Virus record (IMG/VR): IMGVR_UViG_3300009285_003486
Span: 1 to 23,378 of that record
Direction: 5' to 3' (one strand)
DNA: 23,378 bases
DNA from: a virus
Positions 5,659 to 22,712 of the stretch are shown piece after piece. Below the pieces are notes generated by a model. That model searched no databases and was not told where the DNA came from. It saw only the letters and a list, made by a program, of their open reading frames with translations. Position 1 is the stretch's first letter. Each line of letters starts with the position of its first letter. The translations under genes were made by a program, and so were the position numbers.

Positions 5659-6215
5659 AAGCACACTGGAAGTATCTTCAGTATGTCCTGCGGCACAAGT
5701 GGTTTGTCTTTCTCGAAGCCTGCCGTCTGGGGATTCCCTGGCGGGGCTTCTGGCACGATTGGAGCAAGTTCCTGCCGTCGGAATGGTTTGCTTATGTCGA
5801 ATATTTTTATACGAACCGACGGCAAACGGAATGGTTTGATCTTTACTCGAAATACGGGGCGGCGGAATTGGCCCCCTACGGGGAAACGGTCCAAGACCAT
5901 TTCGATCTGGCCTGGCTCTTCCACCAAAAACGCAACCCTCACCATTGGCAGTTTTGGGTCTTGCGGAAGGACGACGGGAACACGAGGGTTTTGTTCATGC
6001 CCGGAAAGTACGCCCGGGAAATGGTAGCCGATTGGTGTGGTATGGGTCGCGCTGTGGGAAAACCGGATACGAGGACCTGGTATCAGGAAAACCAGGGGAA
6101 GATTCTGTTGCACCCCCTGACACGAAATCAGGTCGAGCGACTGTTGGGCCTGCGCCCTCGGCGCGGGTTCCCCTACGCACCCCGCGCCGACGGCACGGGA
6201 GAGGAGACGCCATGA
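5655..6215 (+). CDS. DUF5662-like phage protein
   Basis: 186 residues, ATG 5655, 4 bp overlap with the gene before, GGAGGAGAGG upstream. The sequence HKWFVFLEACRLGIPWRGF, then HDWSKFLPSEW, then QKRNPHHWQFW, shows conserved histidines and aspartate in the order H..HD-SK..N-HHW. This matches the phage and bacterial family DUF5662, whose layout hints at a metal site but whose function is unknown. The C-terminal tail RADGTGEETP is encoded by the next gene's ribosome binding site region and is unlikely to matter to folding. Confidence 0.6.
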   Translation: MKAHWKYLQYVLRHKWFVFLEACRLGIPWRGFWHDWSKFLPSEWFAYVEYFYTNRRQTEWFDLYSKYGAAELAPYGETVQDHFDLAWLFHQKRNPHHWQFWVLRKDDGNTRVLFMPGKYAREMVADWCGMGRAVGKPDTRTWYQENQGKILLHPLTRNQVERLLGLRPRRGFPYAPRADGTGEETP

Positions 6216-6544
6216 AAGCCCACTCGGCACAAGCGGTAGGTCTTGTCATCGCCCCCAATTATAATCAGTTCCTACTCTATTTGCGCTGGACCAACCAGAC
6301 CATCTCCCAGGCCCGCTATGTCGGATCTCTAGACCAACTCTACGGTTGGCCCGACCAGAAACCCCTGTTCATCGTCAATGCTGATTTAATAAACCTCTCC
6401 TTTCGCCACGCCCTGGTTGAATCAGGGATCCTCCAGCGTTTCGCCCTCCGCTATGTGAATTTAGATAATTTTGGCAGAAAGAAAAACACCCACGTCTGGC
6501 TTGACGAACCCTGCGCCGAGGGTACGGGGGAGGAGACATCGTGA
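6212..6544 (+). CDS. Small hypothetical protein sharing a C-terminal motif with the gene at 6936
   Basis: 110 residues from ATG 6212 with a 4 bp ATGA overlap and GAGGAGA upstream. The start region (GAGGAGACGCCATGAAAGCCCAC) closely copies that of the preceding gene. The body is beta-rich (GLVIAPNYNQFLLYLRW) and ends KNTHVWLDEPCAEGTGEETS. The THVWLDEP segment recurs as TRVWLDEP at the end of the 75-residue protein at 6936, suggesting duplication of a small gene cassette. No known family is recognised. Confidence 0.6.
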   Translation: MKAHSAQAVGLVIAPNYNQFLLYLRWTNQTISQARYVGSLDQLYGWPDQKPLFIVNADLINLSFRHALVESGILQRFALRYVNLDNFGRKKNTHVWLDEPCAEGTGEETS

Positions 6545-6939
6545 AGAAACGCTGGAAGATCGTCTGGTTCTGGTGGGTGGTGTTATTGTCTTTTCTGACT
6601 CGTGGGGGCAAGGATTGGGAGATCGTCGAGGGGGTGCCGGAGGACGCGAGACTCGTGGATTGGGGCCCCCATACTGACTGGGAAGAACTGGTCGGCTTAG
6701 TGATCGAGTCCGCGTCTTTCCCCGAAGTGGAAATTACGAGTGAACTCTGGGACGTGGTCCGGGACGAGGTTCCCGTCTTGCTTTTGAAAAGCCGGATTAT
6801 CCCCCAGCCCCTTTCCGACGTTCTCCCCGATGACGCGCGCGTGGAACGCGCGCTGACCGCGATCGAGGAGGCGGTGCAAATCCTGCGGGATCTCCGGGAA
6901 GAACCCCGCGCCGAGGGCGCGGGAGAGGAGGCCAGATGA
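6541..6939 (+). CDS. Hypothetical protein with an N-terminal hydrophobic segment
   Basis: 132 residues from GTG 6541 (GTGA overlap; GGGGGAGGAGA upstream). Residues 4-20 (RWKIVWFWWVVLLSFL) form one hydrophobic, Trp-rich segment after a basic start, likely a single membrane anchor or an uncleaved signal. The rest is acidic and soluble, with a predicted helix near the end (VERALTAIEEAVQILRDLRE). This is the only apparent membrane protein in the operon. A role at the cell envelope, such as exclusion of other phages, is possible but unsupported. Confidence 0.55.
   Translation: MKKRWKIVWFWWVVLLSFLTRGGKDWEIVEGVPEDARLVDWGPHTDWEELVGLVIESASFPEVEITSELWDVVRDEVPVLLLKSRIIPQPLSDVLPDDARVERALTAIEEAVQILRDLREEPRAEGAGEEAR
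6905..6923. repeat. Triloop hairpin just before a ribosome binding site
   Basis: CCCGCGCC and GGCGCGGG form a perfect 8 bp stem with a GAG loop, immediately followed by AGAGGAG, the ribosome binding site of the gene at 6936. Folding could affect how well that site is exposed. Similar but imperfect versions precede the start at 6212 (6181-6199) and 6541. Confidence 0.5.
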
Positions 6940-7163
6940 ACTACTTGACGATGGATGAACTCCAGCGGCTTCCCGAGGGGACCACGATTATGGTGGTCTG
7001 GTCGGGAGGAAATGGCCCTTACCGCTATACGCTGACCTTTACGCCCTTGGGGGCTTGCGCGCAAGCCCCCAATATTTGCTATCTCCTGGCGTTTGTGGGG
7101 AAAGCGCATTGCCATACACGGGTTTGGCTGGACGAACCCCGCGCAAGGGGTCTTGTCTTTTGA
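6936..7163 (+). CDS. Small hypothetical protein ending in TRVWLDEP
   Basis: 75 residues from ATG 6936 with a 4 bp overlap. It begins MNYLTMDELQRLPEGTTIMV and ends HTRVWLDEPRARGLVF, sharing the VWLDEP tail with the protein at 6212, of which it may be a diverged, shorter paralogue. Its codons 38-45 include a 26 bp perfect palindrome (7047-7072), encoding GACAQAPN. No family recognised; function unknown. Confidence 0.55.
   Translation: MNYLTMDELQRLPEGTTIMVVWSGGNGPYRYTLTFTPLGACAQAPNICYLLAFVGKAHCHTRVWLDEPRARGLVF
7047..7072. repeat. Perfect 26 bp palindrome
   Basis: TTGGGGGCTTGCG is followed directly by its exact reverse complement, with no mismatches. It can form a cruciform or, in RNA, a very stable hairpin. 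It lies inside a small coding region, where it fixes the amino acids encoded. Confidence 0.75.
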
Positions 7164-7174
7164 CGAGGAGTAAT

Positions 7175-7813
7175 ATGTGCAACGAAGAAGCAGTTTTGAT
7201 CGCGAAGGTCCAGGCCGGGGATCGGGAAGCGGGAGAGATCCTGGTTCGTATCCATACGGGATACGTGAAGAAGGTGGTCACGCATTGGGTCGCTCCCTCG
7301 GATCGGGATTACGAGGATCTTTTGCAAGCTGGATACGAGGGGTTATGGCGGGCCATGCGCGAGTATGACCCGGCCAAGGCGACCACCTTTCTGACCTGGG
7401 CACGGCACAAGATCCGTGATCGCGTCGAAACGGAGTTTCGGCGCTGCAAGCGCGGCCAGGACACGATCCCGTTAAACGGGCGCGAATGGGACCTGGCCCC
7501 GACCCCGGAAGAAGTCATCCTGGCCGAGGCGCAGGCGGAACTAGAGGGGTTGGAATGGCCCTACCCCCGCCGAGACGGGTTTGACGCCGCCTTCGGCGAG
7601 TATCTGCGGAGGCAGGAATTTACCGGGGCGCAATTGCGGGGTATCGCCGATTGTTGCGAGGTGACGGTGGAGGCCGTGGTCAAATGGTTTTCCGGGACGT
7701 CCCAGCCCATGTTTCTTGACGACGTGGCGATTATTGCCGAGAAGCTGGGGCTGTTGATGGACGAGTTAGTACGCCACTGGCGGCGGCGCAAGGGGACCGT
7801 CTCCCCCGCCTAA
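7175..7813 (+). CDS. Sigma-70 region 2 fused to a Cro/CI-type helix-turn-helix
   Basis: 212 residues, ATG 7175 with GAGGAG 4 bases upstream. Residues about 20-90 match sigma-70 region 2, the part that binds core RNA polymerase and melts the -10 element: DYEDLLQAGYEGLWRAMREYD, then TTFLTWARHKIRDRVETEFRR. A conventional region 4 is not apparent. Residues about 148-200 instead look like a Cro/CI (XRE) domain: LRGIADCCEVTVEAVVKWF, SGTSQP, then AIIAEKLGLLMDELV. It is the last gene of this operon and sits just before the terminase genes, which suits a late-gene transcription switch. The sigma assignment is good; the replacement of region 4 is my reading of the sequence pattern. Confidence 0.72.
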   Translation: MCNEEAVLIAKVQAGDREAGEILVRIHTGYVKKVVTHWVAPSDRDYEDLLQAGYEGLWRAMREYDPAKATTFLTWARHKIRDRVETEFRRCKRGQDTIPLNGREWDLAPTPEEVILAEAQAELEGLEWPYPRRDGFDAAFGEYLRRQEFTGAQLRGIADCCEVTVEAVVKWFSGTSQPMFLDDVAIIAEKLGLLMDELVRHWRRRKGTVSPA

Positions 7814-7829
7814 CCTGCGGTTAGGCGGG
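7805..7829 (+). terminator. Strong hairpin across the sigma-factor stop codon
   Basis: CCCGCCTAACC pairs perfectly over 11 bp with GGTTAGGCGGG around a TGC loop, and the TAA stop lies in the stem. It stands in one of the few intergenic gaps (51 bp) and separates the early-type operon from the packaging genes. No T-run follows, so it is not a textbook Rho-independent terminator; an RNA-stability element or attenuator is as likely. Confidence 0.4.
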
Positions 7830-7864
7830 AAACCTATATTCTTTAATGAGGAAGTTCAACGCAT

Positions 7865-8338
7865 ATGAAATCAACCTGCACGAGCAAAACGGGGGGGCGG
7901 CGCATCGGCGAAGCCGAGCGCGAAGCGAAGGCGGTCGAGTTGCGCCGGCAGGGTAAGAATTACGACCAGATTGCCGCCACGGTGGGGTTTGCCGACCGCA
8001 GTGGAGCGTTCCGCGCCGTGAAACGGGCGCTGGAACGCCTGCGCAAACAGACGACCGAGGAGGCGGTCGTGTTGCTGCGTCTGGAAAACGACCGTCTGGA
8101 CGTGTTGCAGGCGGCGATCTGGGAGCAGGCGGTGGAGCAAGGGGACCTGTTTGCGGTGGATCGCCTGCTGCGTCTGATGCAGCGGCGGGCGGCCCTCAAT
8201 GGCCTGGATCAGCCCACCAAAACCCAGGTCACCGGCGCGAACGGCGATCCCCTGACGGTGGCGCTGACGGCCCCCGACTTACTGGAAGAATTGCGAGGCT
8301 TGAAAGAGCTCTATGGACAACTTACCGGAGAAAAATGA
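7865..8338 (+). CDS. terS: Terminase small subunit-like DNA-binding protein
   Basis: 157 residues, ATG 7865 with GAGGAAG 10 bases upstream. An N-terminal helix-turn-helix (AVELRRQGKNYDQIAATVGF, then SGAFRAVKRALERL) precedes a helical segment (LENDRLDVLQAAIWEQAVEQ) and RLLRLMQRRAALNGLDQPTK. That order matches small terminases that recognise viral DNA and recruit the large subunit, and it directly precedes the large terminase gene with a 26 bp overlap. The annotation rests on architecture and position. A TATATT box at 7835-7840 in the upstream gap might belong to a late promoter, but no -35 partner is clear. Confidence 0.75.
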   Translation: MKSTCTSKTGGRRIGEAEREAKAVELRRQGKNYDQIAATVGFADRSGAFRAVKRALERLRKQTTEEAVVLLRLENDRLDVLQAAIWEQAVEQGDLFAVDRLLRLMQRRAALNGLDQPTKTQVTGANGDPLTVALTAPDLLEELRGLKELYGQLTGEK

Positions 8339-8978
8339 GGCCATTGTCCTGGCCCGGGGCATTTATGCGGCGGGCTGGGCGGGCGCGTGGGCCTTTCTCA
8401 CCCGACAAGTTTTCACCCGTGACGAGGCGGACCCGCAAGCACCGATCAAGCCCTTTCCCGACAAGGAATATTTGAGACTGCTCACCCAGCGCTGGGTAGA
8501 AGAGAAGCTATTAGCGGTGCCCAAGTCAAGGCGGATGTTGGTTAGCTGGGCCTTGACCGCGTTGCACCTCTGGGACGCGCTGCTCCACGAGTACCGCGCT
8601 ATTTACATCGGTGCGCGGAAGCTGGAAGGCAGCGAAGAACTGGTCGGGCGGTGCAAGTTTATCCATGAGCACCTCCGTATGCCGGGGTTATTCCCAGTGG
8701 TCAAGACGCGCGCGGCCCGGGCGTCTAAACACCCCGAAGCCGTCAACGCGCTGCACGTCCCGGAAACCGGCAGTAGTATTCAGGCCGTCGCCGAAGGCGC
8801 GGATCAAATGCGCCAGTATGCCGCCTCGCGGTATCTGGGGGACGAGTTCGCCTTCTGGGGGAAGGCGCGGGCCACCTGGACCGCGCTCAAGCCGGCTGTC
8901 GAGGGTGGGGGACAGATCTGTATCGTCTCTTCGCCCTCGCCGGGGTTTATGGAGGCGATTGTCCATGACCAGTTGTGA
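8313..8978 (+). CDS. terL: Terminase large subunit, ATPase half
   Basis: 221 residues. It contains the packaging-motor ATPase: Walker A variant VPKSRRMLVSW (about 69-79), Walker B with catalytic Glu in RYLGDEFAFW (Asp177, Glu178) and coupling motif III ICIVSSPSP (202-210). The ATPase hydrolyses ATP to drive DNA into the prohead through the portal. The protein stops at FMEAIVHDQL, exactly where full-length large terminases continue into the nuclease domain. That domain is encoded 1.3 kb downstream, at 10305. Joining the two at the shared Asp-Gln would give a normal-size terminase of about 550 residues. The next small gene starts 14 bases before this stop. Confidence 0.85.
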   Translation: MDNLPEKNEAIVLARGIYAAGWAGAWAFLTRQVFTRDEADPQAPIKPFPDKEYLRLLTQRWVEEKLLAVPKSRRMLVSWALTALHLWDALLHEYRAIYIGARKLEGSEELVGRCKFIHEHLRMPGLFPVVKTRAARASKHPEAVNALHVPETGSSIQAVAEGADQMRQYAASRYLGDEFAFWGKARATWTALKPAVEGGGQICIVSSPSPGFMEAIVHDQL

Positions 8979-9445: not shown

Positions 9446-9851
9446 CGATGAGGAAAGAAAGGAGTTGGAAGCCTTGCGTTTGTTGGCGCAAGGCCGAATC
9501 GAGTCCCTGGCGCAACCGGGAATGATCGTGGTGTTTCAGGGGGAGGAGATGTTTTGGCAAGTCTCCCTGCATGAGTTTGGGAAATGGATGGATCGGCAGG
9601 GGGTTCGGGATGTCTGTCTGGTCGTTATCGGGTCGGGGATCGATGCGGTGAGTTGTTTTCATGAAGCCGAGATGGCTAATCTTGGTTGGGTGCGCATGGA
9701 GAGGGCGAGGGAGACCGTTCTTACCGTCATCGAACACTTCAAGCCCCTGGCCCACCGGATTGCCACGGCGATCGAGGAAAAGATCCGGAAACTGCGTTTT
9801 CCCGGGGAACCGGAAAAAGAAAGGAAGAAGAACGATGGGTGTAACGATTGA
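9435..9851 (+). CDS. Hypothetical protein, paralogue 1 of a tandem pair
   Basis: 138 residues from ATG 9435 with an 11 bp overlap. The C-terminal part, TVIEHFKPLAHRIATAIEEK then IRKLRFPGEPE, recurs in the next protein, with matching DNA at a constant offset of 490 bases. The N-terminal parts differ: this one has GMIVVFQGEEMFWQVSLHEF. The shared module looks like one amphipathic helix with a basic end, which could be a docking tail for a common partner. Function unknown; the position between terminase halves is the main clue. Confidence 0.55.
   Translation: MAIDDEERKELEALRLLAQGRIESLAQPGMIVVFQGEEMFWQVSLHEFGKWMDRQGVRDVCLVVIGSGIDAVSCFHEAEMANLGWVRMERARETVLTVIEHFKPLAHRIATAIEEKIRKLRFPGEPEKERKKNDGCND
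9721..9815 (+). repeat. Direct repeat copy A (with 10211-10305)
   Basis: About 95 bases that align without gaps to 10211-10305 (offset 490), including 28 identical bases starting at 9781. It encodes the shared C-terminal helix of the two paralogous genes. Confidence 0.75.
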
Positions 9852-10308
9852 CGAAGGGAAAATAGTGGTGTTGTTTTTCCAGGAGGATCCGGGCGAACCG
9901 CCCAACCGCAAAGAGAACCCGGAGGCGTGGGAAGCCTGGCATCAACAGGCTAGCGTTTGTCTCGAGCCGAAATGGCGGTTGCTCAATACCATGTGGAATT
10001 CGGGGTATTGCGGGTATCTCTGCGCCCTGACTCCCGTGGAGGCCAAGGAGTCCCTGGCGGCTCTGGGACTTGACGTGGAAAAATATGCGGCGATGGAGTT
10101 GGAGCCCGACATCCAGAAGAATTTCCAGCGAGACCACCGTGATCTTTTCCGGTCGCCAGGGGGGATCTATGAGCAGAGAGATGGTTGGAACAAAGCCATC
10201 GCCGCCGTCCTTGCCGTCATCGAACACTGGAAGCCCCTGGCTTTTCGCGTGGCGACGGCCATTGCTGACCAGATCCGGAAACTGCGTTTTCCCGGGGAGC
10301 CGGAGTGA
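9835..10308 (+). CDS. Hypothetical protein, paralogue 2 of a tandem pair
   Basis: 157 residues from ATG 9835, 17 bp overlap, AAGGAAGAAG upstream. The unique N-terminal part includes GKIVVLFFQEDPGEPPNRKE and EAWEAWHQQASVCLEPKW; the C-terminal part, AVIEHWKPLAFRVATAI then IRKLRFPGEPE, is shared with the previous gene. The two were probably made by duplication of the 3' segment or of a whole gene followed by divergence. The final codons overlap the GTG start of the terminase nuclease half by 4 bases, so translation of the two is coupled. Function unknown. Confidence 0.55.
   Translation: MGVTIDEGKIVVLFFQEDPGEPPNRKENPEAWEAWHQQASVCLEPKWRLLNTMWNSGYCGYLCALTPVEAKESLAALGLDVEKYAAMELEPDIQKNFQRDHRDLFRSPGGIYEQRDGWNKAIAAVLAVIEHWKPLAFRVATAIADQIRKLRFPGEPE
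10211..10305 (+). repeat. Direct repeat copy B (with 9721-9815)
   Basis: Second copy of the 95-base repeat. Its right edge falls on the GTG start codon of the terminase nuclease half, so the repeat boundary coincides with the resumption of terminase coding sequence. Confidence 0.7.
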
Positions 10309-11315
10309 GCGTTGCCCTCACAGACCAAACGGGCCTGCGCGAGTGGACTACGGACGCAGGTTTCCACGTACTGCAAATCCACTACACCGCCGACCCCGAC
10401 AAGCGGTCGGAGGAGTGGAAACGGCAGGCCCGGCAGGGATTAGACGACCTGGGTTGGGATCGCGAGTTTGAACTCAACTGGTCGTCAGTGGAGGGGTTGC
10501 CGGTGTTTCGCCACGCCTGGGAAAGCGAAGTCCACGTGGCGAAAACGCCGCTGGCCTATCTCCCGGAAATTCCCGTAGTACGGGGATGGGACTTCGGCTT
10601 GATGCCGGCCTGTGTGTTCTCTCAGTTTACCCCCGGGGGGAGGTGGAACGTCCTGGCCGAAGTCCAGGGTCTACACACGGGTATTCGCTCGTTATGTCGT
10701 CTGATCAAAGCCGAGTACCTGCCCCGGTTTCCCGGGGCGAAGTATGAGGACTACTGCGACCCCGCGGGGTTTAGCCAGTCGCAGACGGACGAGAAAACCT
10801 GCGCTGAGATCATGGCCGAGGAACTCGGCCAATGGCCCAATCGCGGCATTCAGACTTGGACCGAACGCTATGACGCGGTGAGCGAATGGCTGCGCGGCGA
10901 GACCGAGGACGGCACGCCGCTCTTCCAAATGAACTCCTGCTGCCATATCCTCAAACAAGGCTTTGAGGGCGCGTACCATTACCGGGAAATGGCCGAAGGC
11001 CGTTTCAAGGAAGAACCGGAAAAGAACCGCTTCTCGCATTTGCAAGACGCGCTGCAATACCCCGCGACCTGCAACCGGCTCGGCCAGGGGTTGGTGCTGC
11101 ACCCCACGCCCGAACAGCGCGGGAAAATAGACTGTCCGCATGAGTGGGTCGAGTCCGGTGCGGTGGCCGGAATGCGGGTCTGCTGGCGTTGCGGTCAGGC
11201 CGAGAAGAATGAGGCGGATCTGGAACTGGAAGCGTTGGCGCAACGCGCCGACCGTTTCGGGGAGATCGGCGAGGACGTGATTGACCACTTGCGAGAATTA
11301 GGAATCTATCGCTAA
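10305..11315 (+). CDS. terL: Terminase large subunit, nuclease half
   Basis: 336 residues from GTG 10305 (GTGA overlap, GGGGAG about 5 bases upstream). After a short lead (VSVALTDQTGLREW) it continues as the second half of a large terminase: HYTADPDKRSEEW, then the RNase H-fold nuclease with VVRGWDFGLMPACVF (Asp96), EDYCDPAG (Asp152) and FSHLQDALQY (Asp248), probable metal-binding acids. The nuclease cuts concatemeric DNA at the start and end of packaging. The C-terminus has a Cys/His cluster (CPHEW, then CWRCG) like a small zinc knuckle, not usual in terminases as far as I know. The two-polypeptide arrangement with the gene at 8313 is unusual; splicing has not been excluded. Confidence 0.82.
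   Translation: MSVALTDQTGLREWTTDAGFHVLQIHYTADPDKRSEEWKRQARQGLDDLGWDREFELNWSSVEGLPVFRHAWESEVHVAKTPLAYLPEIPVVRGWDFGLMPACVFSQFTPGGRWNVLAEVQGLHTGIRSLCRLIKAEYLPRFPGAKYEDYCDPAGFSQSQTDEKTCAEIMAEELGQWPNRGIQTWTERYDAVSEWLRGETEDGTPLFQMNSCCHILKQGFEGAYHYREMAEGRFKEEPEKNRFSHLQDALQYPATCNRLGQGLVLHPTPEQRGKIDCPHEWVESGAVAGMRVCWRCGQAEKNEADLELEALAQRADRFGEIGEDVIDHLRELGIYR
10813..10831. repeat. GAA-triloop hairpin inside the terminase nuclease gene
   Basis: TGGCCGAG and CTCGGCCA form a perfect 8 bp stem around GAA. GNA triloops closed by a G-C or C-G pair are known to be unusually stable in DNA. Confidence 0.5.
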
Positions 11316-13267
11316 TGCATAACGGAATTTCCAAAGGCGCACGCTTTGAGCTATTGATGGACGAAGTGGAGTCCCGGATCGCGAACGGGAACGGGAACGT
11401 TCCTGTCCCGGAACTGTGGCTGCCCCCGGCGGTGCAGTCGCAGTTGGTGCAGAAAGCGCTAGGGGACCTGCGCGGTCAGGTGGTGCGGCTGCCCAACGGC
11501 GAGCAAGTCGCCGTCGTTCAGGCCGATGAGGAACTGGTGAAGTCACTCTCCGGCGGGCAAGCGCAAGCGCAGCCCTACCGGGGTACGCCGGGCCTGCTGG
11601 AAATGGGTGCTGCGCCGGGGATTGTGAACCCTCCCGCGCGCGAGCGCATCACCTGGGAAGCGCTGCGGACCGTGCCGCAGCGCAATCCCGTCTTCGCGGC
11701 CATTGAGCAGCGTTTCCTGAATATTCTGGCGCGGTTTAGCCGACCGAACCCCGAAAAGCAGCAGGTCGGGTTTGAGATCGGGTTGCGTGATCCGAAGCAG
11801 AACATGACGTCGGCGGCCCAGAAGAAAGCCACCTGGATTCAGCAATTGCTCTGGCATGGCGGGTTGGTGCGCGAACACCCCCGGACCGGTGAACCGGCGG
11901 TGTGGTCGGCGGACTTCACCGAAGCCGCCGACGACTTCCCGACCTTCCTGCGGAAGGTTTTTACCGACCGTCTGCGTTTCGATCATGCGGCTATTCGCTT
12001 CGAGGTCGGCGAGAACGAGAAGAAATACCCGATTGTTTTCTTCAAGTCCGTGGACGGGGCGCGGGTGCGCCGCGCCCGTCCGCAGCAGCCCGGCAAGGAC
12101 GAGGTGAAAGCGCCCTTTTTCTTCCGGCAGGGAGGGTATATTCCCACTATCCGACCCGAGTTGAAGCACGTCAAATACGTCTTGGTGTTGCCCACCACCG
12201 AAAACCAGGTCGAGCGGGAGTTTCAATGGGACGAGTTGACCGTGCTGGTACAGAACCCGTCCAACGACCCCACCCGCAGCGAGATCGGCTATCCCGAAAA
12301 CGAAATGTGTCTGGACTTGATTACCGGGATTCTCTACGGGATGGAAACGAACCTGGAAAAGTTCGACAGCAACCACATTCCCCGGGGGTTTCTCGTTGTG
12401 AAAATGCGTCAGATCCGTGAGGGAATGTCGGGCGCGGAGGATACCCGGATCGCCTCGTTTCGCAAATACCTGCGCCTGAGCGTTGGGGGAATGGGACAAC
12501 TGTGGGCGCTACCGATTATTAGCGTGGACCCGAATCTTGGCGAGGATGTGCCGGAATACATCAAGATGGACGAAGACCCCTCGGCCGGCATGTATTGGAA
12601 GGAGTGGATGATCTTCTGTGCCAGCGTTGCCGCGGCGGTGCATGGCCTGCAAGCGGGAGAGTTGAACTTCGCTCACTTCGGGCAAAGTTCCAATGCGCTG
12701 AGCAGCGACTCGCTGGAAGAGCGGATTGAGTATAGCGCCTCTACTGGCGTGGTTCCAAAGATGCAATGGCTGGGCCAAAAATTGGACACGGCCAGCGTCG
12801 CCCGGATCGATCCTGATTTCTGCTTCCGGTTCGTTAACCTGGAGCCTCGGTCGGAGGAGGCGGAACAGAAAGCGGACGCCCATTTTCTGAGCAATGGGAT
12901 TAAATCCGTCGCGGAAATTCGTACCGAGAAGGACCTGTCGCCCGTGCGCGATCCGTTGGATCGCGACCTGTGGCGGCAGGTGTGCAAGCAACGCGAAGAG
13001 TCCGAGGCCAAACTCAAAGAAGAGGACGAGGACGCCTGGTGGGAGATGGTGGCGAATACCTACGAGGAGTCGGGCGGGGAATTTGCGCAATGGCCCACGG
13101 CCCCGCAGGGGCCCCTCTTGCAGGTATGGATGGCCGAGCATGGGATCGGGGGGATGGGGGGACCGGTAGGGCCGGAAGGTCCTGGTGGGGAACCGGGAGA
13201 AGAGGAAGAAGAAGAAGCGCCGCCGCAGGCGGCGCAAGGGGAAGAAGAAGGAAGGAAGGAAGCGTGA
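11315..13267 (+). CDS. Portal protein
   Basis: 650 residues from ATG 11315, sharing one base with the terminase stop (TAATG). Size, position after the terminase and before a minor head protein, and internal sequence (ERITWEALRTVPQRNPVFAA near 110-130; HIPRGFLVVKM and an acidic, helical C-terminus) fit a tailed-phage portal, the dodecameric ring at the capsid vertex that DNA is pumped through and to which the tail is attached. The final 50 residues are a low-complexity Gly/Pro then Glu-rich tail (EEEEEEAPPQAAQGEEEGRKE). There is no single diagnostic motif that I can point to, so the call relies on context, length and overall pattern. Confidence 0.78.
   Translation: MHNGISKGARFELLMDEVESRIANGNGNVPVPELWLPPAVQSQLVQKALGDLRGQVVRLPNGEQVAVVQADEELVKSLSGGQAQAQPYRGTPGLLEMGAAPGIVNPPARERITWEALRTVPQRNPVFAAIEQRFLNILARFSRPNPEKQQVGFEIGLRDPKQNMTSAAQKKATWIQQLLWHGGLVREHPRTGEPAVWSADFTEAADDFPTFLRKVFTDRLRFDHAAIRFEVGENEKKYPIVFFKSVDGARVRRARPQQPGKDEVKAPFFFRQGGYIPTIRPELKHVKYVLVLPTTENQVEREFQWDELTVLVQNPSNDPTRSEIGYPENEMCLDLITGILYGMETNLEKFDSNHIPRGFLVVKMRQIREGMSGAEDTRIASFRKYLRLSVGGMGQLWALPIISVDPNLGEDVPEYIKMDEDPSAGMYWKEWMIFCASVAAAVHGLQAGELNFAHFGQSSNALSSDSLEERIEYSASTGVVPKMQWLGQKLDTASVARIDPDFCFRFVNLEPRSEEAEQKADAHFLSNGIKSVAEIRTEKDLSPVRDPLDRDLWRQVCKQREESEAKLKEEDEDAWWEMVANTYEESGGEFAQWPTAPQGPLLQVWMAEHGIGGMGGPVGPEGPGGEPGEEEEEEAPPQAAQGEEEGRKEA
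13217..13235. repeat. GCA-triloop hairpin near the portal gene end
   Basis: GCGCCGCC and GGCGGCGC pair over 8 bp around GCA. It lies about 30 bases before the next gene's start, followed by AAGGGGAAGAAGAAGGAAGGAAG. Confidence 0.5.
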
Positions 13268-15039: not shown

Positions 15040-15543
15040 ATGCCAGCGTTTATAAAAACAGCGAAAGACGAAGCGGCGTGGGCGGAGGCGAAAGCCGCCG
15101 TCCGCAAGCAATACCCGGACCTCTCCGAGGACGACGACCGTTTCTGGCGGCTGGTCAACGCCATTTACCAGAAAATGGCCGGGAAGGTGGCGAAAGCTTT
15201 GAGTGCGACGCAACAGGCCGACTTTGACCGGGAAACCCAAGCAATCCGGGAACACGCCAAAACCGCCGTCGCGAAGCGACGACACAAATTCCAGAGAGCG
15301 AAATGGACCCATCCGAACGGCCATCCCCGTTGTCGGATCTGTGGGGACGAGCAGCCCGTGGGGGGATACTGTGAGCCAGAGCCGCAGCCGGTGAAAAAGG
15401 CGGTCTGGGGGTTCCGGGTGAACCGCGCGGCGTTGACGCCGCAACGGCTCTGGGGGTGGACGCTGCGCAAGAGCGCGGCGCGGAAAGAACGGTTCCCGCA
15501 GGAGATTGTGGAAGCATCGCAAGAGGCGAGGGAAAGGGGTTAG
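15040..15543 (+). CDS. Virion-block protein with two WGW/WGF motifs
   Basis: 167 residues from ATG 15040, AAGGAG 6 bases upstream. The N-terminal 50 residues (FIKTAKDEAAWAEAKAAVRK, then SEDDDRFWRLVNAIYQKM) form a helical module recognisable from other phage structural-region proteins, where K-D-x-x-x-W-x-x-A-K and F-W-x-L-V-x-x-I-Y-x-K-M patterns occur. A CRIC...GDE segment could bind metal. The C-terminal half has two copies of the W-G motif: KKAVWGFRV and RLWGWTLRK. Function is unknown. Location between head and topoisomerase genes suggests a minor virion or assembly protein. Confidence 0.6.
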   Translation: MPAFIKTAKDEAAWAEAKAAVRKQYPDLSEDDDRFWRLVNAIYQKMAGKVAKALSATQQADFDRETQAIREHAKTAVAKRRHKFQRAKWTHPNGHPRCRICGDEQPVGGYCEPEPQPVKKAVWGFRVNRAALTPQRLWGWTLRKSAARKERFPQEIVEASQEARERG

Positions 15544-15545
15544 AC

Positions 15546-16466
15546 ATGCTCTGGGGTTGGCTGATCAAAGGTCGGCGGGCGTCCTCTCGGAAGGACGCCT
15601 GGAAAACAGAGCCGCGCGACGAGTCCGGGCGTTGGACGATTCTCGGCGAGTCGTCCACGGGACCGCTCCGCAAGGAAAGCGGCGTATCGCTCACGGGAGA
15701 GGAAGAAATTCGCGCACGGCACTATCTGAAGGGCCGTCCCGATCTGGTCAAGGTCCGTATCAACCCCGATCCCGACGCGGATCTACAAGGGATCGGGTTT
15801 GACCGCAAGGGGAAACGGGTCTACTTGTATACCGCCTCGCACAAGACCGCCTCCGCCGAGGAGAAGTTTACCCGCGCGAAAGACTTCGCGCGGGTATTGC
15901 CCCGGTTGCGACGTGAAGTCAAAGCGGCCGCGCCAGCCGGGGATGAAGTAGCGTCCGTGGTGCTGTTGATCGACCGGACGGCGTTCCGCGTCGGCTCGAC
16001 CCGGGACACGCAAGCGGAGAAGCAAGCCTTTGGCGCGACCACGTTGCAAGCGCAGCATGTGCGGATCGAAGGGGATACCGTCCACTTCGACTTCACCGGC
16101 AAGAAGGGGGTGGCGCAAAAGCACTCCATCCGCAGTCGGGACCTGGCTCGGGTGATGACCCGGCAGTTAGCGGGGAAAGCGCCGGAAGATCGTCTCTTCT
16201 CGGTCTCCGAAATGCAAGTCAACAAGTATCTCGCGCGTTTCGGGGACTTTACCGCGAAAGACTTTCGGACCTATCACGCCTCGCAACTGGCGCGGGAGCA
16301 AGTGGAGAAGCTCCCCGCTCCGGCGACGCCGAAAGCGTTTCAGAAGTTACAAAAGCAAGTGGCGGTGCTGGTCTCTCAATTTCTGGGGAATACCCCCCAG
16401 ATTGCCTTGAAGGACTACATCGATCCGACGGTTTTCGCTCCGTGGGAAATTATGAAGGGAAATTAA
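15546..16466 (+). CDS. DNA topoisomerase type IB
   Basis: 306 residues from ATG 15546. The full type IB catalytic set is visible: Arg148 (LLIDRTAFRVGS), Lys186 (FTGKKGVAQKH), Arg241 with His244 (FRTYHAS) and the nucleophile Tyr291 (LKDYIDP), in the same order as poxvirus and bacterial enzymes. It relaxes supercoils by a transient 3'-phosphotyrosine link. Residues 2-8 are LWGWLIK, the motif repeated in neighbouring proteins. A normal topoisomerase N-terminus starts only near residue 45 (SGVSLTGEEEIRARHY), so the first 45 residues are an added segment. Placement among structural genes, away from replication genes, is unexpected. The 12 bp hairpin at 15869-15896 lies within the gene. Confidence 0.88.
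   Translation: MLWGWLIKGRRASSRKDAWKTEPRDESGRWTILGESSTGPLRKESGVSLTGEEEIRARHYLKGRPDLVKVRINPDPDADLQGIGFDRKGKRVYLYTASHKTASAEEKFTRAKDFARVLPRLRREVKAAAPAGDEVASVVLLIDRTAFRVGSTRDTQAEKQAFGATTLQAQHVRIEGDTVHFDFTGKKGVAQKHSIRSRDLARVMTRQLAGKAPEDRLFSVSEMQVNKYLARFGDFTAKDFRTYHASQLAREQVEKLPAPATPKAFQKLQKQVAVLVSQFLGNTPQIALKDYIDPTVFAPWEIMKGN
15869..15896. repeat. 12 bp perfect hairpin within the topoisomerase gene
   Basis: TACCCGCGCGAA and TTCGCGCGGGTA pair over 12 bp around an AGAC loop. It is the longest of the coding-region hairpins seen here. Confidence 0.6.
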
Positions 16467-16468
16467 CA

Positions 16469-19400
16469 ATGGTCCCTGTTCACATAAAAGACTCCGAAGA
16501 GGCGCAAGTCGCGCGGGAGAAGTTGTACTTACAGCATTTGGACTCGGTGGTGTTTGTGCCGCCTCCGGTCAAGAAGTCGGTCTGGGGGTGGCTGATCAAG
16601 TCCACCATTCACGGGCATTGGATGACTACACGTAGTGGCAAGCGGGTTTGGGTCAAAGAGCACAGTGATAAGCGGGTCAAACACGCACCGCAGGCGGCGC
16701 TGTTAGACGTCTCCCCGACGGCGAAGCCGTCCGGGAAGGAACGGGCGGCGCAGCCGTCCGCAACCCCGGTCAAGCCCCGTCCACTGAGCCTCTGGGACGT
16801 GGTGGAAGCGCCGGGGACCGCGCCCAAGAAGCCGGAGGTCAAGCCGGAACCCGCGCCGCAGGCGCGGGAAGAGGAGCCCGCTTCGCCGACCGATCAGGTT
16901 TATGCGCTCCTGAAGCAACCCGGCCTGATTTCCATGTCCGATCTCGCGAAGGAGATCGGTTCCCTGGACACGGTATACCGCGCTTTCGCCGAGCTCAAAG
17001 CGCGGGGGACCCCGGCCTATCACCACGGTGACGCCCTCTTCTCGCTGGAGCCGCCGTCAAAATCGGGACGACGGAAGGTAAAGAAGGGACTCTGGGGCTG
17101 GACATTTACCCTGCCCCGAACGCTGTATAAAGCCCATCCGCCGGTGCAGCACACGGGGGAGAAAGTCCCCGTAAAGCAACTCGATCCGGCTCTGCGCAAG
17201 AAGGTTTCGACGGGAACCCACTTTACTTCCGATGAAATGAAGAAACACGGCCTGGTCTGGCGTACCACTGAGGACGGTCGCCATATCATCGTTAAAGACC
17301 TGGGGAATGATGAAGGAGTAGTGGTCGGTGGGGCCGAGGGTAAGATGAATTTTGCCCGGATCAAGCTGAAGGGTGGGAGTTCCGCCGAGGCGAAGCCGCT
17401 GAAAGAAAAGAAAACGACCCCGGAACTGACGGAAAAGGAACATACCGAGGCGGAAGAGAAGCAGAGGGCTATGGTCTCGCGCAAGCAGGAACTCAAACAA
17501 CAGGCGCGGGACCTGGTGCGGAACAAAATTGCTGCGGTGGGCCAGTTGGACCTCGACGAAAAGCAACTACAAAAGGTCCGGGACCTGGCGAAAGACAAGG
17601 CGAAGGCGCAAGGGGTCTTTGGTGAAGCCGCCGACGAATTTGTGAAGCACACGGAACAACAATTCCAGGCCGATCACGCCACGGCGCTGCGCAAAATCCA
17701 ACAGGAGGCGTTAGACCGGGCCTTAAAGAAACATGCGCGGGAACACCAGACCGGGGTAAAACATGAAGCCGAGGCGATTACCGCGGAAGAGGTGGCCGAG
17801 CATGCGGCGAAGCCGCGCGAAGGCAAGGAAGAAGCCACGCCTGACGACATGGTGGCCTACCTGAAGGAACTCCTTCCCGAAAAATTGCAACTCTCCGATG
17901 AAGAAAGCCAACAACTCGTTTCTTCATTTATCGAAGAACGGGAGTTGGACGCGCAAGCGCGGACCTTGCGCCGCGCGCTCAAACGGGGCGAGGCCGAAGG
18001 GATTCGCGCGGTAGACCTGGCAACCCGCGCCTTGACCCCTGAAGAAATGCGGCAATATGCCTCGGAAATGCAGGTTCGCAAGGAAGAAGTCCTGACCAAC
18101 CTGCAACTTGTGCAAGCCGCCGAAGCCGTTCCGAAGTCGATCCGGCAGGAACAGTTGCACCACGGCCTGGCGGATACCGCGGCCGGTCTGGGCTATGAAC
18201 TGTTAGGCGAAACCCTCATGGATACTACGTCGGTACGCAAACTCGGTGCGGCGGCCTCGTCGCGATTAGTGGCCCAGTCTATTTTAGATCGCTATGGAGG
18301 GAATGCCCGGAAAGCCGCGGCCGCGGTGCGCGAGTATGTGGCGCAGCATTCCAGCGCGGTCGCCGCCGCCGCCATGCAGCGGCACGACGACCTCCTGCAG
18401 CGGGCCGGTGAGTTTGAACAGTTCGCTGGAAAGAATGCCAGCAGTCTCTTAACCGCGCAGCAGGCGCGGGCCTATGCGCTGCAATACACCAATGAAGCCA
18501 AGCGCGTGGTCGCCCGCAGTCTGGGCAGTCTGGAAATGGCCTCGTCCGTGGCGGAACTATTGTCACAAGGGCCGATTACGGACCCGCTCTCCCTGCGGGG
18601 CCGGGGAACCCTGGTGGGAACGCATGAAATGGCTGGGGAAATGGGGTTAAGCAAGGGCGATTATACCGTTCAGAAGGAACAACGGCACTACAATCTCCAA
18701 GTGAAACCCGAAGCGATGTCCAAGTTGGTCAAACGGCGCAAGGTCGAAAGCTTGGAACGGGACCGGGAAGTGCAACGGATCAAGGACCTCGGGCAACAGT
18801 CCGAAAATCTCGACCCGGCCACGGGTCGAGAATACCGCGCCCCGGGCCAGCAGGGAAACATTATGCTGTCCGCGCCGCAGGCGGCGGACATTCAAATGTG
18901 GGAGCGGCAGAAGAAGATCCTCGTCACCGACGAAGCGGGTCTGGGAAAAACCGCCGTGGCCATCCTGGGCGCGACCAACCTGGTCGAGCAGGGGCTGGCG
19001 AAGAAGGTCCTGGTGGTCGTGCCGTTGTCCGTGCAACAGCAGTTCAGTGGGGAAATCGAGAAATTTGCCGACCCGAAATACCACGATTCCTACACCGTGG
19101 CCGATAGCCGGGACAAAATGCGCAAGGCGGGAAAAGGCGATCAGGTCTTTACCATCGTCACGCGGGACGCGCTCCGTAATTGGGAGGGAGACATTAAGGA
19201 GGGGGGGTTTGACGCTGTGGTCGTAGACGAGGCGCATGAGTTTACCATTCGCGGCGAGGCCTCCGGCAGTGGGCGTTCGCAGGCCCTACGCCGGGTCCTG
19301 CCGGACATGGAATACGCACTCTTAATGACCGGAACTCCGGTGAAGAATGACCTGACCGAGCTCCATTCCCTGGTGGACAGTCTCCAACCGGGGGCGTTGG

Positions 19401-20359
19401 GGTCCCTGGCGAAGTTCAAGGAACGCTACGGGGGCCTGGAGCGGCGACGGGGACTGTTTGACCAGTCCCTCTTAAATCAATTGCAGCACGAATTAGATGG
19501 GGTGGTGGTGGGCCATTCCCTGCACGTCGAGAAAGACGGATCGCTGGTCATTGAAAACGCCAAGAACCGCTCGGGCAACCCGGTGGAACTGAAGGAACAG
19601 ACGCTCTATGTGGACCCGACCGAGGCGCAAACGCAGCAGATCGCCGAGAATAACGAAATGTATCTGACGGCAAAACGGGCGGGGGTCGCCGGGGTTTCGC
19701 TGGCGAAACACGGCCTGGATAAGAAGGCGGTCAACAATATCAGCGCGGAGGCCAACTCCAAGTCCCAACCCGTGGCGAGTTGGCTCCAGGAGAAGGGCTA
19801 TCCCCAACGGAAGGCGATAGTGTTCTCGGACAGTCCCGAAGTCATTCGCAGCACGATCCTTCCCGCGATGGGGGTGGACCCGAAAGACGCGGTGATTATC
19901 GAAGGAGACGTCAGCGAGTCCTGGCAACGAGACGCGATTGCGCGGTGGTACAACGAGGACGAGGGCAAGCCGCTGGATGAGCGGCAAAGGAGGTGGATTG
20001 AACGGCAGGGATGGGCCGTGAACAAACCGCCGAGAATGCTGTTTGCCACGGATGCGGCGAACTATGGAATGAACCTGCCCGGGGGTTCACTGATGGTTGA
20101 GTGGGACACCACGGACACCGCCGCGACCTCACGGCAGCGCATCGGGCGCGAATGGCGCACCGGGCAGAACGCGGCGACGGTGGACGTGCTTCACGTGCGC
20201 ACGCGCACGCCGCACGAAATGCGAGCCGAGGATCGGCTGAAGAACAAGGCGGCGAGCATGAAGATTGGCGAAGAAACCCGCCACGTGGACGAAAGCGGGT
20301 TTGCGCCGATAGTGGCGGCGCATTTGGGGAAACTGAAGGAAGAGGGCTACGGTGATTAA
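16469..20359 (+). CDS. SNF2-type DNA helicase with N-terminal WGW and winged-helix segments
   Basis: 1296 residues from ATG 16469, 3 bp after the topoisomerase stop. Order: WGW motif 1 (KKSVWGWLIK, near residue 40); a GHW...GKRVWVKEH segment; Pro/Lys-rich linker; winged-helix-like domain (about 140-196); WGW motif 2 (KKGLWGWTF, about 207); a long charged helical region likely to be coiled coil (about 310-560); then the superfamily 2 motor: DEAGLGKT (Walker A, about 821), VVVDEAHEF (about 918), LMTGTPVKN (about 952) and QRIGREWRTGQ (motif VI, about 1223). Motors of this type move along double-stranded DNA and displace proteins. A large SNF2-like protein in the head region recalls phage P1 DarB, an injected antirestriction protein, though no methylase domain is present. 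The ATG at 16442 is an alternative start. Confidence 0.85.
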   Translation: MVPVHIKDSEEAQVAREKLYLQHLDSVVFVPPPVKKSVWGWLIKSTIHGHWMTTRSGKRVWVKEHSDKRVKHAPQAALLDVSPTAKPSGKERAAQPSATPVKPRPLSLWDVVEAPGTAPKKPEVKPEPAPQAREEEPASPTDQVYALLKQPGLISMSDLAKEIGSLDTVYRAFAELKARGTPAYHHGDALFSLEPPSKSGRRKVKKGLWGWTFTLPRTLYKAHPPVQHTGEKVPVKQLDPALRKKVSTGTHFTSDEMKKHGLVWRTTEDGRHIIVKDLGNDEGVVVGGAEGKMNFARIKLKGGSSAEAKPLKEKKTTPELTEKEHTEAEEKQRAMVSRKQELKQQARDLVRNKIAAVGQLDLDEKQLQKVRDLAKDKAKAQGVFGEAADEFVKHTEQQFQADHATALRKIQQEALDRALKKHAREHQTGVKHEAEAITAEEVAEHAAKPREGKEEATPDDMVAYLKELLPEKLQLSDEESQQLVSSFIEERELDAQARTLRRALKRGEAEGIRAVDLATRALTPEEMRQYASEMQVRKEEVLTNLQLVQAAEAVPKSIRQEQLHHGLADTAAGLGYELLGETLMDTTSVRKLGAAASSRLVAQSILDRYGGNARKAAAAVREYVAQHSSAVAAAAMQRHDDLLQRAGEFEQFAGKNASSLLTAQQARAYALQYTNEAKRVVARSLGSLEMASSVAELLSQGPITDPLSLRGRGTLVGTHEMAGEMGLSKGDYTVQKEQRHYNLQVKPEAMSKLVKRRKVESLERDREVQRIKDLGQQSENLDPATGREYRAPGQQGNIMLSAPQAADIQMWERQKKILVTDEAGLGKTAVAILGATNLVEQGLAKKVLVVVPLSVQQQFSGEIEKFADPKYHDSYTVADSRDKMRKAGKGDQVFTIVTRDALRNWEGDIKEGGFDAVVVDEAHEFTIRGEASGSGRSQALRRVLPDMEYALLMTGTPVKNDLTELHSLVDSLQPGALGSLAKFKERYGGLERRRGLFDQSLLNQLQHELDGVVVGHSLHVEKDGSLVIENAKNRSGNPVELKEQTLYVDPTEAQTQQIAENNEMYLTAKRAGVAGVSLAKHGLDKKAVNNISAEANSKSQPVASWLQEKGYPQRKAIVFSDSPEVIRSTILPAMGVDPKDAVIIEGDVSESWQRDAIARWYNEDEGKPLDERQRRWIERQGWAVNKPPRMLFATDAANYGMNLPGGSLMVEWDTTDTAATSRQRIGREWRTGQNAATVDVLHVRTRTPHEMRAEDRLKNKAASMKIGEETRHVDESGFAPIVAAHLGKLKEEGYGD
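16717..16731. repeat. GAA-triloop hairpin in the helicase gene
   Basis: GACGGC and GCCGTC pair over 6 bp around GAA, in the sequence coding for the Pro/Lys-rich linker. Confidence 0.4.
16850..16868. repeat. GCA-triloop hairpin in the helicase gene
   Basis: CCCGCGCC and GGCGCGGG pair over 8 bp around GCA. Its arms are identical to those at 6905-6923, although the genes are unrelated and the reading frame differs in meaning. Confidence 0.5.
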
Positions 20360-22310
20360 GCTGTCTTTGAGTCAAGCCAGGGAATATTTGGAACTGTGTA
20401 AGTCCCGTGTTGCGGGTCATTATAGCACCTCCGGGAAGGGCAAACGGTATTGGGTGGCCGAACACGAGGACCAGCGCACCAAACGGGAACCGGGCGCGTC
20501 CGTGACTGCCCCGCGCGCGGCGGCGAAGAAGGAGACGAACCCGGCCACGTCCTTTTGGGCGAAGGTGGGCGAAGACGCCAAGAAGATTGACGCGGCCAAG
20601 GAAACGGAAACGAAACCGGCTCCCAAGCCAATCGCGAAGCAACCGCTGGAAAAGAAACCGTCCGCCGCGCCGAAGAAGCCCGTTACCGCGAAACCGTCAC
20701 AACCCAGTCAGGAAGAACTGAAAGCCACCGTGTTGCAGGTACTTCAAGCGGCGAAGGGGAAGCGAGTTCACCTCGATCAAATCATCAAAAAGACCGGGTT
20801 AGAGGGGGGACAGGTGAACGCCGGATTGGTGTTGTTGGAGTTGAGCAATCAAATCCTACGCTATCCCGGTGGGGAATTTGCGCTTGTGATCGCGAAGAAG
20901 CCGGCGGCAAAACCGCCGGAAAAGAAACCGCTCGCCGCGCCGAAGAAGCCCGCACCCGCAACCCCGAAGGAAGGGTTGTTTGCACCACGGGCCACGGAAG
21001 GGAAATTTGCCGGGCGGCCCTTGCGCCCGGACGGGCGCTTAGAGCCGCAACCGGGCGATCAGGTCTATATGGTCTTTGCCGGTTTTGGGGGGATGCCTGC
21101 TTCGGTGAAGGGGGAAGTCTATTCAAGTAAAAAGGGGTTGCGGGTGAAAATCACCGGATCTCATTCCGCGTTGGGTGGCGAGGGGGGGGTGTCCGGCCCC
21201 AAGGCGATGGACCTGGACGAAGAATGGACGGTCGAGGGGGACCCGGAAATCAATCGGCGCGTGGCTGCACAGAACGCCAAACGCGAAGCGGGGGCGAAAG
21301 CGAAGCAGGAAACCGCAGCGAAACGGGAACAGGCGCACCAGGAATGGATGAAAGAAACCCGGAAACGGGGCAAGGTCACACCGGAAAAGGTGAAACCCGG
21401 CGATATTGTGCAAGAGTTTCATCCGGCCTATGACGAACCCCATTATTCCGTTGTGCATGGCATGGAGGAGCGGGGAATCCAGGGTCTTAGCGAGGGAGAC
21501 GACCCGACCGAGAGGCGTCCCTATGATCTCGGCGACCCGGTAAACATGCGTCTCCTCAATCGCCAGGAAATCGCCAAGTTGCCCGATCCACTGAAAGAAC
21601 ATGCGAAGCAGGTTCGCACGGGCAAGGTCGCGCAGCACTGGGAAAAGGTGGAGCGCGAATACCGGGAAAAGGAAGAGTCCCAGGAACGGGCGCAAGCGGA
21701 ACTCGCGGCAAAGCATGGGGGCAAGACCGTGGGGGACTTGGTGGGCGACGCGAAGTCGGCTCCCTTGGGGGTTATTTCCTCGAAGGATCTTTCCTTGAAA
21801 GTGTCCCTGCAATGGCGAAAGAACGAGTCTCGTATTGCGGGAGGGCATTATGAGGTTGTCTTGCACGACGAGGGGAAAAAGGTTCCCTTGCACCTCTATT
21901 TTAGCAAAGAGGATAGTTTGGGGAAAGTGGAAGAGGACATTAAGGGGGAACTGGCCGAGGGCGCAGTGCTCCAGATCGGAGCGAGCCTTCCGGCGAAGCC
22001 GCCGGTTTCCCGTTCAGCAACGCCCCGGAAAACAGAACAACCGAAAGATATTCCCGACGTATCCCAGGAACACTATCCCGGCATGCTGTTTCCGGGAAGC
22101 GGAAATGCTCGCTTTAACCAGGAGGCATCCTTACGATTGGGGCATCAGGTCTATACCAAGCAAATGACGCCTGCCGATGCGGTAGACCTACTAAAAACCA
22201 TAGGACAGACCGGAAACTATTATGCCCAACAGGAATTAAAGACGATGGTGTCCTACTGGCGCAAGAAACTCAAAAAGTCCTGGGGCTGGACGATTAGAAA
22301 GGTGGCATAA
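20352..22310 (+). CDS. Winged-helix, Lys/Pro/Ala-rich protein ending in a WGW motif
   Basis: 652 residues from GTG 20352, 8 bp overlap with the helicase gene. Residues about 22-38 (GHYSTSGKGKRYWVAEH) repeat the GHW...GKR-WV-EH segment of the helicase. Lys/Pro/Ala-rich linkers (KKPSAAPKKPVTAKP and a near copy later) flank a winged helix (about 121-180; VHLDQIIKKTGLEGG, then LVLLELSNQILRYPGGEFAL) that resembles the DprA C-terminal DNA-binding domain. A helical, charged middle follows, then a C-terminal KSWGWTIRKVA. The composition is like histone H1-type DNA condensers. I infer a DNA-binding virion or packaging partner of the helicase; enzymatic motifs are absent. Confidence 0.65.
   Translation: MIKLSLSQAREYLELCKSRVAGHYSTSGKGKRYWVAEHEDQRTKREPGASVTAPRAAAKKETNPATSFWAKVGEDAKKIDAAKETETKPAPKPIAKQPLEKKPSAAPKKPVTAKPSQPSQEELKATVLQVLQAAKGKRVHLDQIIKKTGLEGGQVNAGLVLLELSNQILRYPGGEFALVIAKKPAAKPPEKKPLAAPKKPAPATPKEGLFAPRATEGKFAGRPLRPDGRLEPQPGDQVYMVFAGFGGMPASVKGEVYSSKKGLRVKITGSHSALGGEGGVSGPKAMDLDEEWTVEGDPEINRRVAAQNAKREAGAKAKQETAAKREQAHQEWMKETRKRGKVTPEKVKPGDIVQEFHPAYDEPHYSVVHGMEERGIQGLSEGDDPTERRPYDLGDPVNMRLLNRQEIAKLPDPLKEHAKQVRTGKVAQHWEKVEREYREKEESQERAQAELAAKHGGKTVGDLVGDAKSAPLGVISSKDLSLKVSLQWRKNESRIAGGHYEVVLHDEGKKVPLHLYFSKEDSLGKVEEDIKGELAEGAVLQIGASLPAKPPVSRSATPRKTEQPKDIPDVSQEHYPGMLFPGSGNARFNQEASLRLGHQVYTKQMTPADAVDLLKTIGQTGNYYAQQELKTMVSYWRKKLKKSWGWTIRKVA
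20901..20919. repeat. Hairpin in a Pro/Lys linker
   Basis: CCGGCGG and CCGCCGG pair over 7 bp around a CAAAA loop, within codons of the second Lys/Pro/Ala-rich linker. Confidence 0.4.
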
Positions 22311-22712
22311 ATGAAACGCTTACTCAAGAACCCCCTGCCTCATCCCGACGAAATCCGCACCCGTCATCACCAATCGCTGGCGGCGATTTCTGTCATGCAA
22401 ACACGGCTGGTTGCCGCGCTCCAAGACGGCCAAGCGGAAACGCTGAAGCAACTGAAGGACGCCGAAGCGACGGCTTCACGGTTGCGCCCCGCGATCAAGC
22501 AGTGGGTCGAGGGGGGACTGAAGGACGAAGACCGTCCCCCGGACAAGGACTTGCAAGCCTATCTGGACGCCGTACACCAGGCGCATGAACTGCGTCTGGC
22601 TGATAATGCCGCATACCAGGCGTTGCGGGACCACGAAGAGACGGCGGACGAGGAACCGGAACCAGGGAAAGAGGACCATCAACATGCTCCGTTTCAGCTT
22701 ATCGGACTTTAG
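22311..22712 (+). CDS. Small helical hypothetical protein
   Basis: 133 residues from ATG 22311, directly after the previous TAA with no overlap; no strong ribosome binding site is visible (AAAGGTGG is 7 bases upstream). Almost the whole sequence looks alpha-helical and charged (AALQDGQAETLKQLKDAEAT; VHQAHELRLADNAAYQALRD), with an acidic His-containing end. Small helical proteins in this position are often scaffolds or head-tail accessories, but no family is recognised. Its 3' end overlaps the next gene by 29 bases. Confidence 0.6.
   Translation: MKRLLKNPLPHPDEIRTRHHQSLAAISVMQTRLVAALQDGQAETLKQLKDAEATASRLRPAIKQWVEGGLKDEDRPPDKDLQAYLDAVHQAHELRLADNAAYQALRDHEETADEEPEPGKEDHQHAPFQLIGL

Follow-up and report, generated by a model that had tools for sequence, protein, structure and literature searches.

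Region 4 of a sigma factor normally reads the -35 element and binds the beta flap. In phage T4 the late sigma gp55 has sigma similarity in domain 2 only, and the beta flap is taken by gp33, which does not read DNA sequence (PMC2988020). This is the case that tells that domain 2 alone can work given help. The Herelleviridae phage SPO1 uses gp28 and gp34 as the middle and late sigma factors that program the infection (PMC9429907). A different kind of late regulator is found in the staphylococcal phage phi13, in which Ltr, encoded before the late genes, switches on the packaging and head genes and needs for this a set of repeats located within its own coding sequence, at the 3' end; the related situation is that of RinA, located 5' of terS (PMC13123087). 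As to DNA recognition by the regulators of the XRE type, they commonly bind palindromes as dimers (PMC12565409).

Here we describe a 23,378-base stretch taken from an IMG/VR virus record (referred to as the window, Table 1), likely a fragment of a phage genome, that carries a gene for a 212-aa protein with a sigma-70 region 2 followed by a domain that resembles those of the Cro/CI (XRE) repressors. Compared to the sigma-70 factors of the SigH/FliA type, the protein is alike in region 2, where the identity to a Clostridia-type SigH reaches 42% over 100 aa, and in the PEE linker, but neither region 3 nor region 4 was found in it and the XRE-like domain is there instead. Like in the case of T4 gp55, its sigma similarity is confined to domain 2; however, gp55 relies on gp33 and the sliding clamp, whereas the window protein has a putative DNA-binding domain fused on. 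The portal protein of the window is SPO1-like, and gp28 and gp34 of SPO1 are likewise phage sigmas, although the Herelleviridae sigmas that we examined (BSP38, Moonbeam and Goe8) keep region 4. With RinA and Ltr the gene shares its location directly upstream of the packaging genes. These are, however, small regulators of ca. 130 aa for which no similarity to known bacterial factors has been described and which are not presented as sigmas, while the window protein carries Sigma70_r2, and none of the RinA, ArpU and Ltr-type families matched it in Pfam, PHROGs or NCBIfam. The counterpart of their binding repeats would be one candidate palindrome at the end of the sigma gene. Finally, RstR and the CI-type repressors have, as the window protein does, an HTH and then a G-x3-P turn and IA..LG..DEL helices, but in the window protein this domain is C-terminal, scores below the curated cut-offs and is fused behind a sigma region 2. 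The parallels with phi13 Ltr, with RinA and with the binding of palindromes by XRE proteins are to be taken as analogies for the operator reading developed below.

Table 1. Coordinates of the window and of the features considered in this work.
Feature	Position	Strand	Basis or remark
Window, IMG/VR virus record IMGVR_UViG_3300009285_003486	1 to 23,378		23,378 bases
Second perfect palindrome, 13-bp arms, no loop	7047..7072	.	Terminator-like; inside ORF 6936-7163
Short terminator-like hairpin, then CTTGTCTTTT	7136..7151	+	Just before the ribosome site of the sigma gene
ORF, sigma region 2 and Cro/CI-like C-terminal domain	7175..7813	+	Intact, 212 aa
Sigma-70 region 2, residues 23-90	7241..7444	+	Pfam Sigma70_r2, PHROG 351, FliA
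Linker with 'TPEEVILAEAQAELE' stretch, residues about 103-128	7481..7558	+	Sole part of the tail touched by a region-4 profile
Cro/CI (XRE)-like DNA-binding domain, residues about 129-205	7559..7789	+	RstR, own XRE profile, hhalign, Foldseek
Perfect inverted repeat CCCGCCTAACC-TGC-GGTTAGGCGGG, 11-bp arms	7805..7829	.	Candidate operator or RNA hairpin
TATATT box	7835..7840	+	Sequence; one mismatch from TATAAT
HTH-bearing gene, probable small terminase subunit (TerS)	7865..8338	+	PHROG 645 (E 3e-27); directly before TerL
Large terminase (TerL), ATPase part	8313..8978	+	tblastn to annotated TerL (E 3e-5); PHROG 2
Large terminase (TerL), nuclease part	10305..11315	+	tblastn to annotated TerL (e.g., E 3e-22)
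Portal protein, SPO1-like	11315..13267	+	tblastn to Herelleviridae portals (7e-31); PHROG 11117

Region 2 and the C-terminal domain

The gene has an ATG start with a GAGGAG ribosome site upstream, and its GC3 is even along the length (0.71, 0.79 and 0.80), so that there is no sign of a patched frame. The match to Pfam Sigma70_r2 had E 9e-11 with the whole protein and E 1.2e-11, above the curated cut-off, with the N-terminal 100 aa. The sigma factor family PHROG 351 matched at 3e-12, the solved FliA at 5e-6, and the NCBIfam sigma models concur. A previous inspection of the letters and open reading frames (the sequence-only reading) had called this region 2 convincing, and these matches bear it out. 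By eye, the usual pattern for clamp binding and melting is preserved in the core segment DLLQAGYEGLWRAMREYDPAKATTFLTWARHKIRDRV, and the retention goes beyond clamp binding alone, including the -10 and melting segments (DLLQAGYEGL...YDPAKATTFLTWA). Region 2 is predicted to bind the beta-prime clamp, to recognize the -10 element and to take part in melting.

No region 4 was detected in the rest of the protein. The Pfam models Sigma70_r4 and r4_2 (PF04545 and PF08281) matched neither the whole protein nor pieces of it, in searches in which the HMMER filters discard most weak matches, and with PF04545 a search of all six frames up to E 10 gave no region 4 match either. A region-4 profile of our own, built from 92 sigma tails, gave 2.0 bits on the tail, restricted to residues 107-122 ('LAPTPEEVILAEAQAE', within the linker), a value equalled by 46 of 5000 shuffles. 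The comparison to region 4 with hhalign had a probability of 1% over 15 columns, all of them linker. None of these profiles (Pfam, own or hhalign) reaches residues 130-205. As a control, divergent phage sigmas retrieved in the same searches do match region 4. Therefore, the result that the sequence-only reading had named as contrary to it, a profile placement of residues 110-200 in region 4, was sought by the three approaches and was not obtained.

The best library match of the tail was NCBIfam RstR, a phage repressor family (E 7e-4, 19.8 bits vs. a cut-off of 80), and Pfam HTH_3 gave no match, i.e., no curated XRE family cut-off is passed. With our own XRE profile, built from 30 phage Cro/CI-type domains, the tail scored 9.7 bits over profile positions 28-70, which correspond to the HTH plus the two helices that follow. 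This score was reached by none of 5000 shuffles and by none of 2275 reversed natural pieces, the best of which had 9.0, a narrow margin. The same profile cross-matches an ordinary sigma tail with up to 14 bits, and so the XRE score by itself does not separate XRE from region 4; what carries the argument is how differently the two profiles score the tail, together with the residues that come next to the recognition helix on its C-terminal side. The pattern in question is literally present, an HTH, then a GTSQP turn and then IAEKLGLLMDEL, with about 35 residues beyond the recognition helix that carry the XRE pattern G-x3-P...IAxxLG...DEL. The comparison to XRE with hhalign covered 54 columns (probability 37%, E 3.6e-4), and CI-like repressors were among the best annotated phage tblastn rows, at E 0.3 only. 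The single-sequence AlphaFold models have low confidence (mean pLDDT 52 and 63). In that of residues 129-212 (mean pLDDT 63) the HTH is internal, and its Foldseek matches were mostly XRE proteins (AcrIIA15, HipB, HigA, DdrO and YdaS), all with E >1 and Z of at most 4.3, with sigma region 4 absent among the 50 matches listed; at these values the matches are no more than supportive. For the whole model, VIA-align retrieved designed proteins and long-helix ones, matched to residues 2-99, and was uninformative. We consider it probable that the tail is XRE-like, the similarity being distant, and the Cro/CI-like C-terminal domain originally proposed stands as the best reading on the RstR, XRE profile and hhalign matches. 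At the level of sequence comparison the observation of a sigma factor with a repressor-type tail in place of region 4 is confirmed.

This reading of the tail comes from one sequence on one contig, for which we found no orthologue. Peptide-pattern scans of IMG/VR and GTDB, which detect close relatives only, gave no fused relative, and neither did tblastn, a more sensitive search, against 50,697 records of phages and 72,556 of plasmids. When GTDB was searched with a three-sequence alignment we retrieved 80 loci, with matches rarely extending beyond region 2 and tails that score as region 4. The first three phage tblastn matches (human faecal "Bacteriophage sp.") were ordinary SigH-like factors beside bacterial housekeeping-type genes, and are probably bacterial contigs. 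The sigmas of BSP38, Moonbeam, Goe8, S-B68, phiRTG5 and Cr-LKS4 were also discarded as fused relatives, all of them showing region 4 (weakly in Cr-LKS4). Near the portals of 80 loci related to the SPO1-like portal there was no region-2 match to the window sigma, a chance 19-aa C-terminal match being the only one, and peptide patterns from the SNF2 piece or the portal alone found no relatives. In the open-licence literature we found no description of a fusion of sigma region 2 with XRE or with KilA-N.

A candidate target site before the packaging genes

The sigma gene is located immediately 5' of the TerS-like gene, after which come those of the terminase and the portal, in agreement with the position just before the packaging genes that had been assigned to it in the sequence-only reading. 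The TerS identity is probable, judging from the match to PHROG 645 (a family named "RNase E" in PHROGs) and from the position before TerL, and this gene is presumed to be the first of the late block. The stop codon of the sigma gene falls inside the perfect inverted repeat 7805-7829, just 5' of the terminase genes. The TATATT box is found 5 bp past the palindrome and 24 bp before the packaging gene, and a 17-bp spacer counted from it puts the -35 position (7812-7817) at the palindrome centre. The box is weak alone and a consensus promoter scan does not report it. Perfect repeats of this kind (arms of at least 11, loops of at most 4) are present in three places in the 23 kb, vs. 0.03 per dinucleotide shuffle, and two of the three flank the sigma gene, the other one (7047-7072) being ca. 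100 bp 5' of it. As for terminator-like sites of the kind found before the ribosome site of the sigma gene, their count in the region is not above that of shuffles. No second copy of the 7805-7829 palindrome was found in the window at up to 3 mismatches, and its half-sites are no commoner than chance. It had been suggested that the protein could act on operator-like sites before the late genes. Of this there stands one perfect palindrome at the -35 position of a TATATT box before the packaging gene, present as a single copy in the window and next to a weak box, and that may be an RNA hairpin. It is a candidate operator or a candidate hairpin, and the evidence collected here fits both alike.

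We propose that the protein is a phage-specific two-domain sigma-like factor, with a Cro/CI tail for region 4, that is aimed at the promoter of the packaging genes. For this reading taken as a whole we see the balance of probability as about even; the alternatives discussed below do not exclude each other, and that of a hairpin concerns the target site only. Region 2 would dock on the beta-prime clamp of the host RNA polymerase and would read and open the -10 box, while the Cro/CI-type HTH domain, replacing region 4, would bind an operator-like sequence upstream. The polymerase would thereby be directed to one or few phage promoters, the simplest candidate being the one in front of the genes for packaging and for the head, and the palindrome at which the sigma gene ends would serve as the target of its own product. 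We infer that the product of 7175..7813 would bind both RNA polymerase and DNA, would use the palindrome as operator and would activate the late genes.

Competing readings of the protein and the palindrome

The tail could be an ordinary, very diverged region 4 and the protein a normal ECF/SigH-like phage sigma. Region 4 and XRE have the HTH fold in common, ordinary phage region 4 cross-matches HTH_3, MAFFT can align the HTH of the tail with that of SigH, and the linker keeps the "PEE" stretch, the 'TPEEVILAEAQAELE' of Table 1, which in ordinary sigma factors is found just before region 4. However, the region-4 profiles leave residues 130-205 untouched, whereas the SigH-like tails of the set score at least 63 bits and most of the divergent phage tails at least 30. 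In addition, region 4 terminates soon after its recognition helix, whereas the window protein continues with the XRE pattern. We regard a diverged region 4 as quite unlikely. Still less credible, and in our opinion very improbable, is that two neighbouring genes, one for a sigma and the other for a repressor, have been fused by an assembly or sequencing error. The contig is single and an independent relative with the same fusion was not found, but there is one open frame with even codon composition, one ribosome site and a sigma-type linker between the domains, and near residue 125 there is no well-placed start with a ribosome site.

Accepting a sigma region 2 joined to an XRE domain, the protein might be a repressor or a tether of RNA polymerase, with the XRE domain on the 3'-end palindrome and region 2 holding or blocking the polymerase until the late switch. 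XRE proteins are usually repressors and often autoregulatory (PMC12565409 for autoregulation), and the palindrome sits between the sigma gene and the packaging genes. On the other hand, the -10 and melting segments of region 2 are kept, as in initiating sigmas, and autoregulation usually acts from the 5' side of a gene, whereas the palindrome best placed here lies on the 3' side. We hold this role as doubtful. The palindrome could also act in the transcript, as the hairpin of a terminator, an attenuator or a processing site, and not be bound by the sigma-like protein, which would act at other sites or at host promoters. The hairpin would be stable (-23.4 kcal/mol, z -2.9) and is placed right at the stop codon, but the stem is followed by AAACCTAT, which is not T-rich, and we have set aside a canonical intrinsic terminator for this reason. 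A hairpin is a real possibility, if somewhat short of an even chance, and it touches the target site only, leaving the two-domain sigma-like factor intact.

Parallels and further features of the window

One parallel case was found in a 70.8-kb record (IMGVR_UViG_3300044712_002068, L111), where positions 1358-2233 code for a protein of 291 aa in which region 2 (9e-17) is accompanied by a KilA-N domain (7e-6, over the gathering score). Region 4 was not detected in it, and the gene adjoins, by eye, head protease, decoration and capsid genes. The two proteins are alike in having region 2 without region 4, another phage DNA-binding domain instead, and a position next to head genes; however, the tail of the L111 protein is KilA-N and not XRE, unrelated to the one described here, and it is a parallel and not a relative of the window protein. 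Near relatives of the L111 protein were not found. In the sigma of another locus (L117) region 4 was likewise not detectable. As both L111 and L117 are also without detectable region 4, its replacement may not be confined to the window, and may be a recurrent phage device. Tentatively, we suggest that phages build operator-addressed sigmas, in which region 2 is kept and region 4 is swapped for an available phage DNA-binding domain (Cro/CI-type here, KilA-N in L111), so that the choice of promoter would follow a repressor-type operator and not the -35 element. If this were true, the polymerase would be addressable by an ordinary operator via a natural protein without region 4, and repressor-type and sigma-type control would be joined in one chain. 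It would also offer a simple test of how much sigma is needed when another fold contacts the upstream DNA. With the DNA-binding domain fused on, a gp55-like factor would be self-contained, and it would be a useful model for orthogonal promoters.

All the clearly assignable genes of the window are on the + strand. By Pfam and PHROGs, those found 5' of the sigma gene are a DNA methylase, a RuvC-like gene and small ORFs. In the methylase ORF (505-1866) an N6/N4 DNA methylase is combined with HTH stretches and with a part that is weakly ParB-like. Before the RuvC-like gene there is a non-coding stretch of ca. 350 bp (2600-2950) in which GATGATTAACCGGAT and its variants form two clusters of iteron-like direct repeats (2692-2754 and 2822-2882), together with inverted AAAACTTTCATT/AATGAAAGTTTT and AGTATCATT repeats and TGAGCCATTAA repeats. 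This stretch has the appearance of an origin of replication or of a control region with several operators. Three of the small upstream genes end in a similar 38-nt unit (6179-6216, 6508-6545 and 6903-6940) that codes for C-termini resembling one another (GTGEE or GAGEE) and includes the ribosome site of the next gene, and a stretch related to this unit is located at 7122-7151, just before the sigma gene.

On the 3' side, the large terminase is split, with ca. 1.3 kb of small ORFs between the ATPase and the nuclease ORFs. A 100-nt direct repeat (9715-9814 and 10205-10304, 81%) ends exactly at the start of the nuclease ORF, and there was no intron match in Rfam. Farther 3' than the portal a topoisomerase IB domain is encoded, as well as a SNF2 helicase protein. 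Several ORFs of this late region (15040-23376), among them those of the topoisomerase IB, SNF2 and a DprA-winged-helix protein, have a short motif like KKxxWG[WF]xxK, and the stretch 'GH[WY]..(x)GKR.WV.EH.D.R.K' is common to the SNF2 ORF and the 20352 ORF. These recurring motifs may tag injected polyvalent proteins for packaging or processing.
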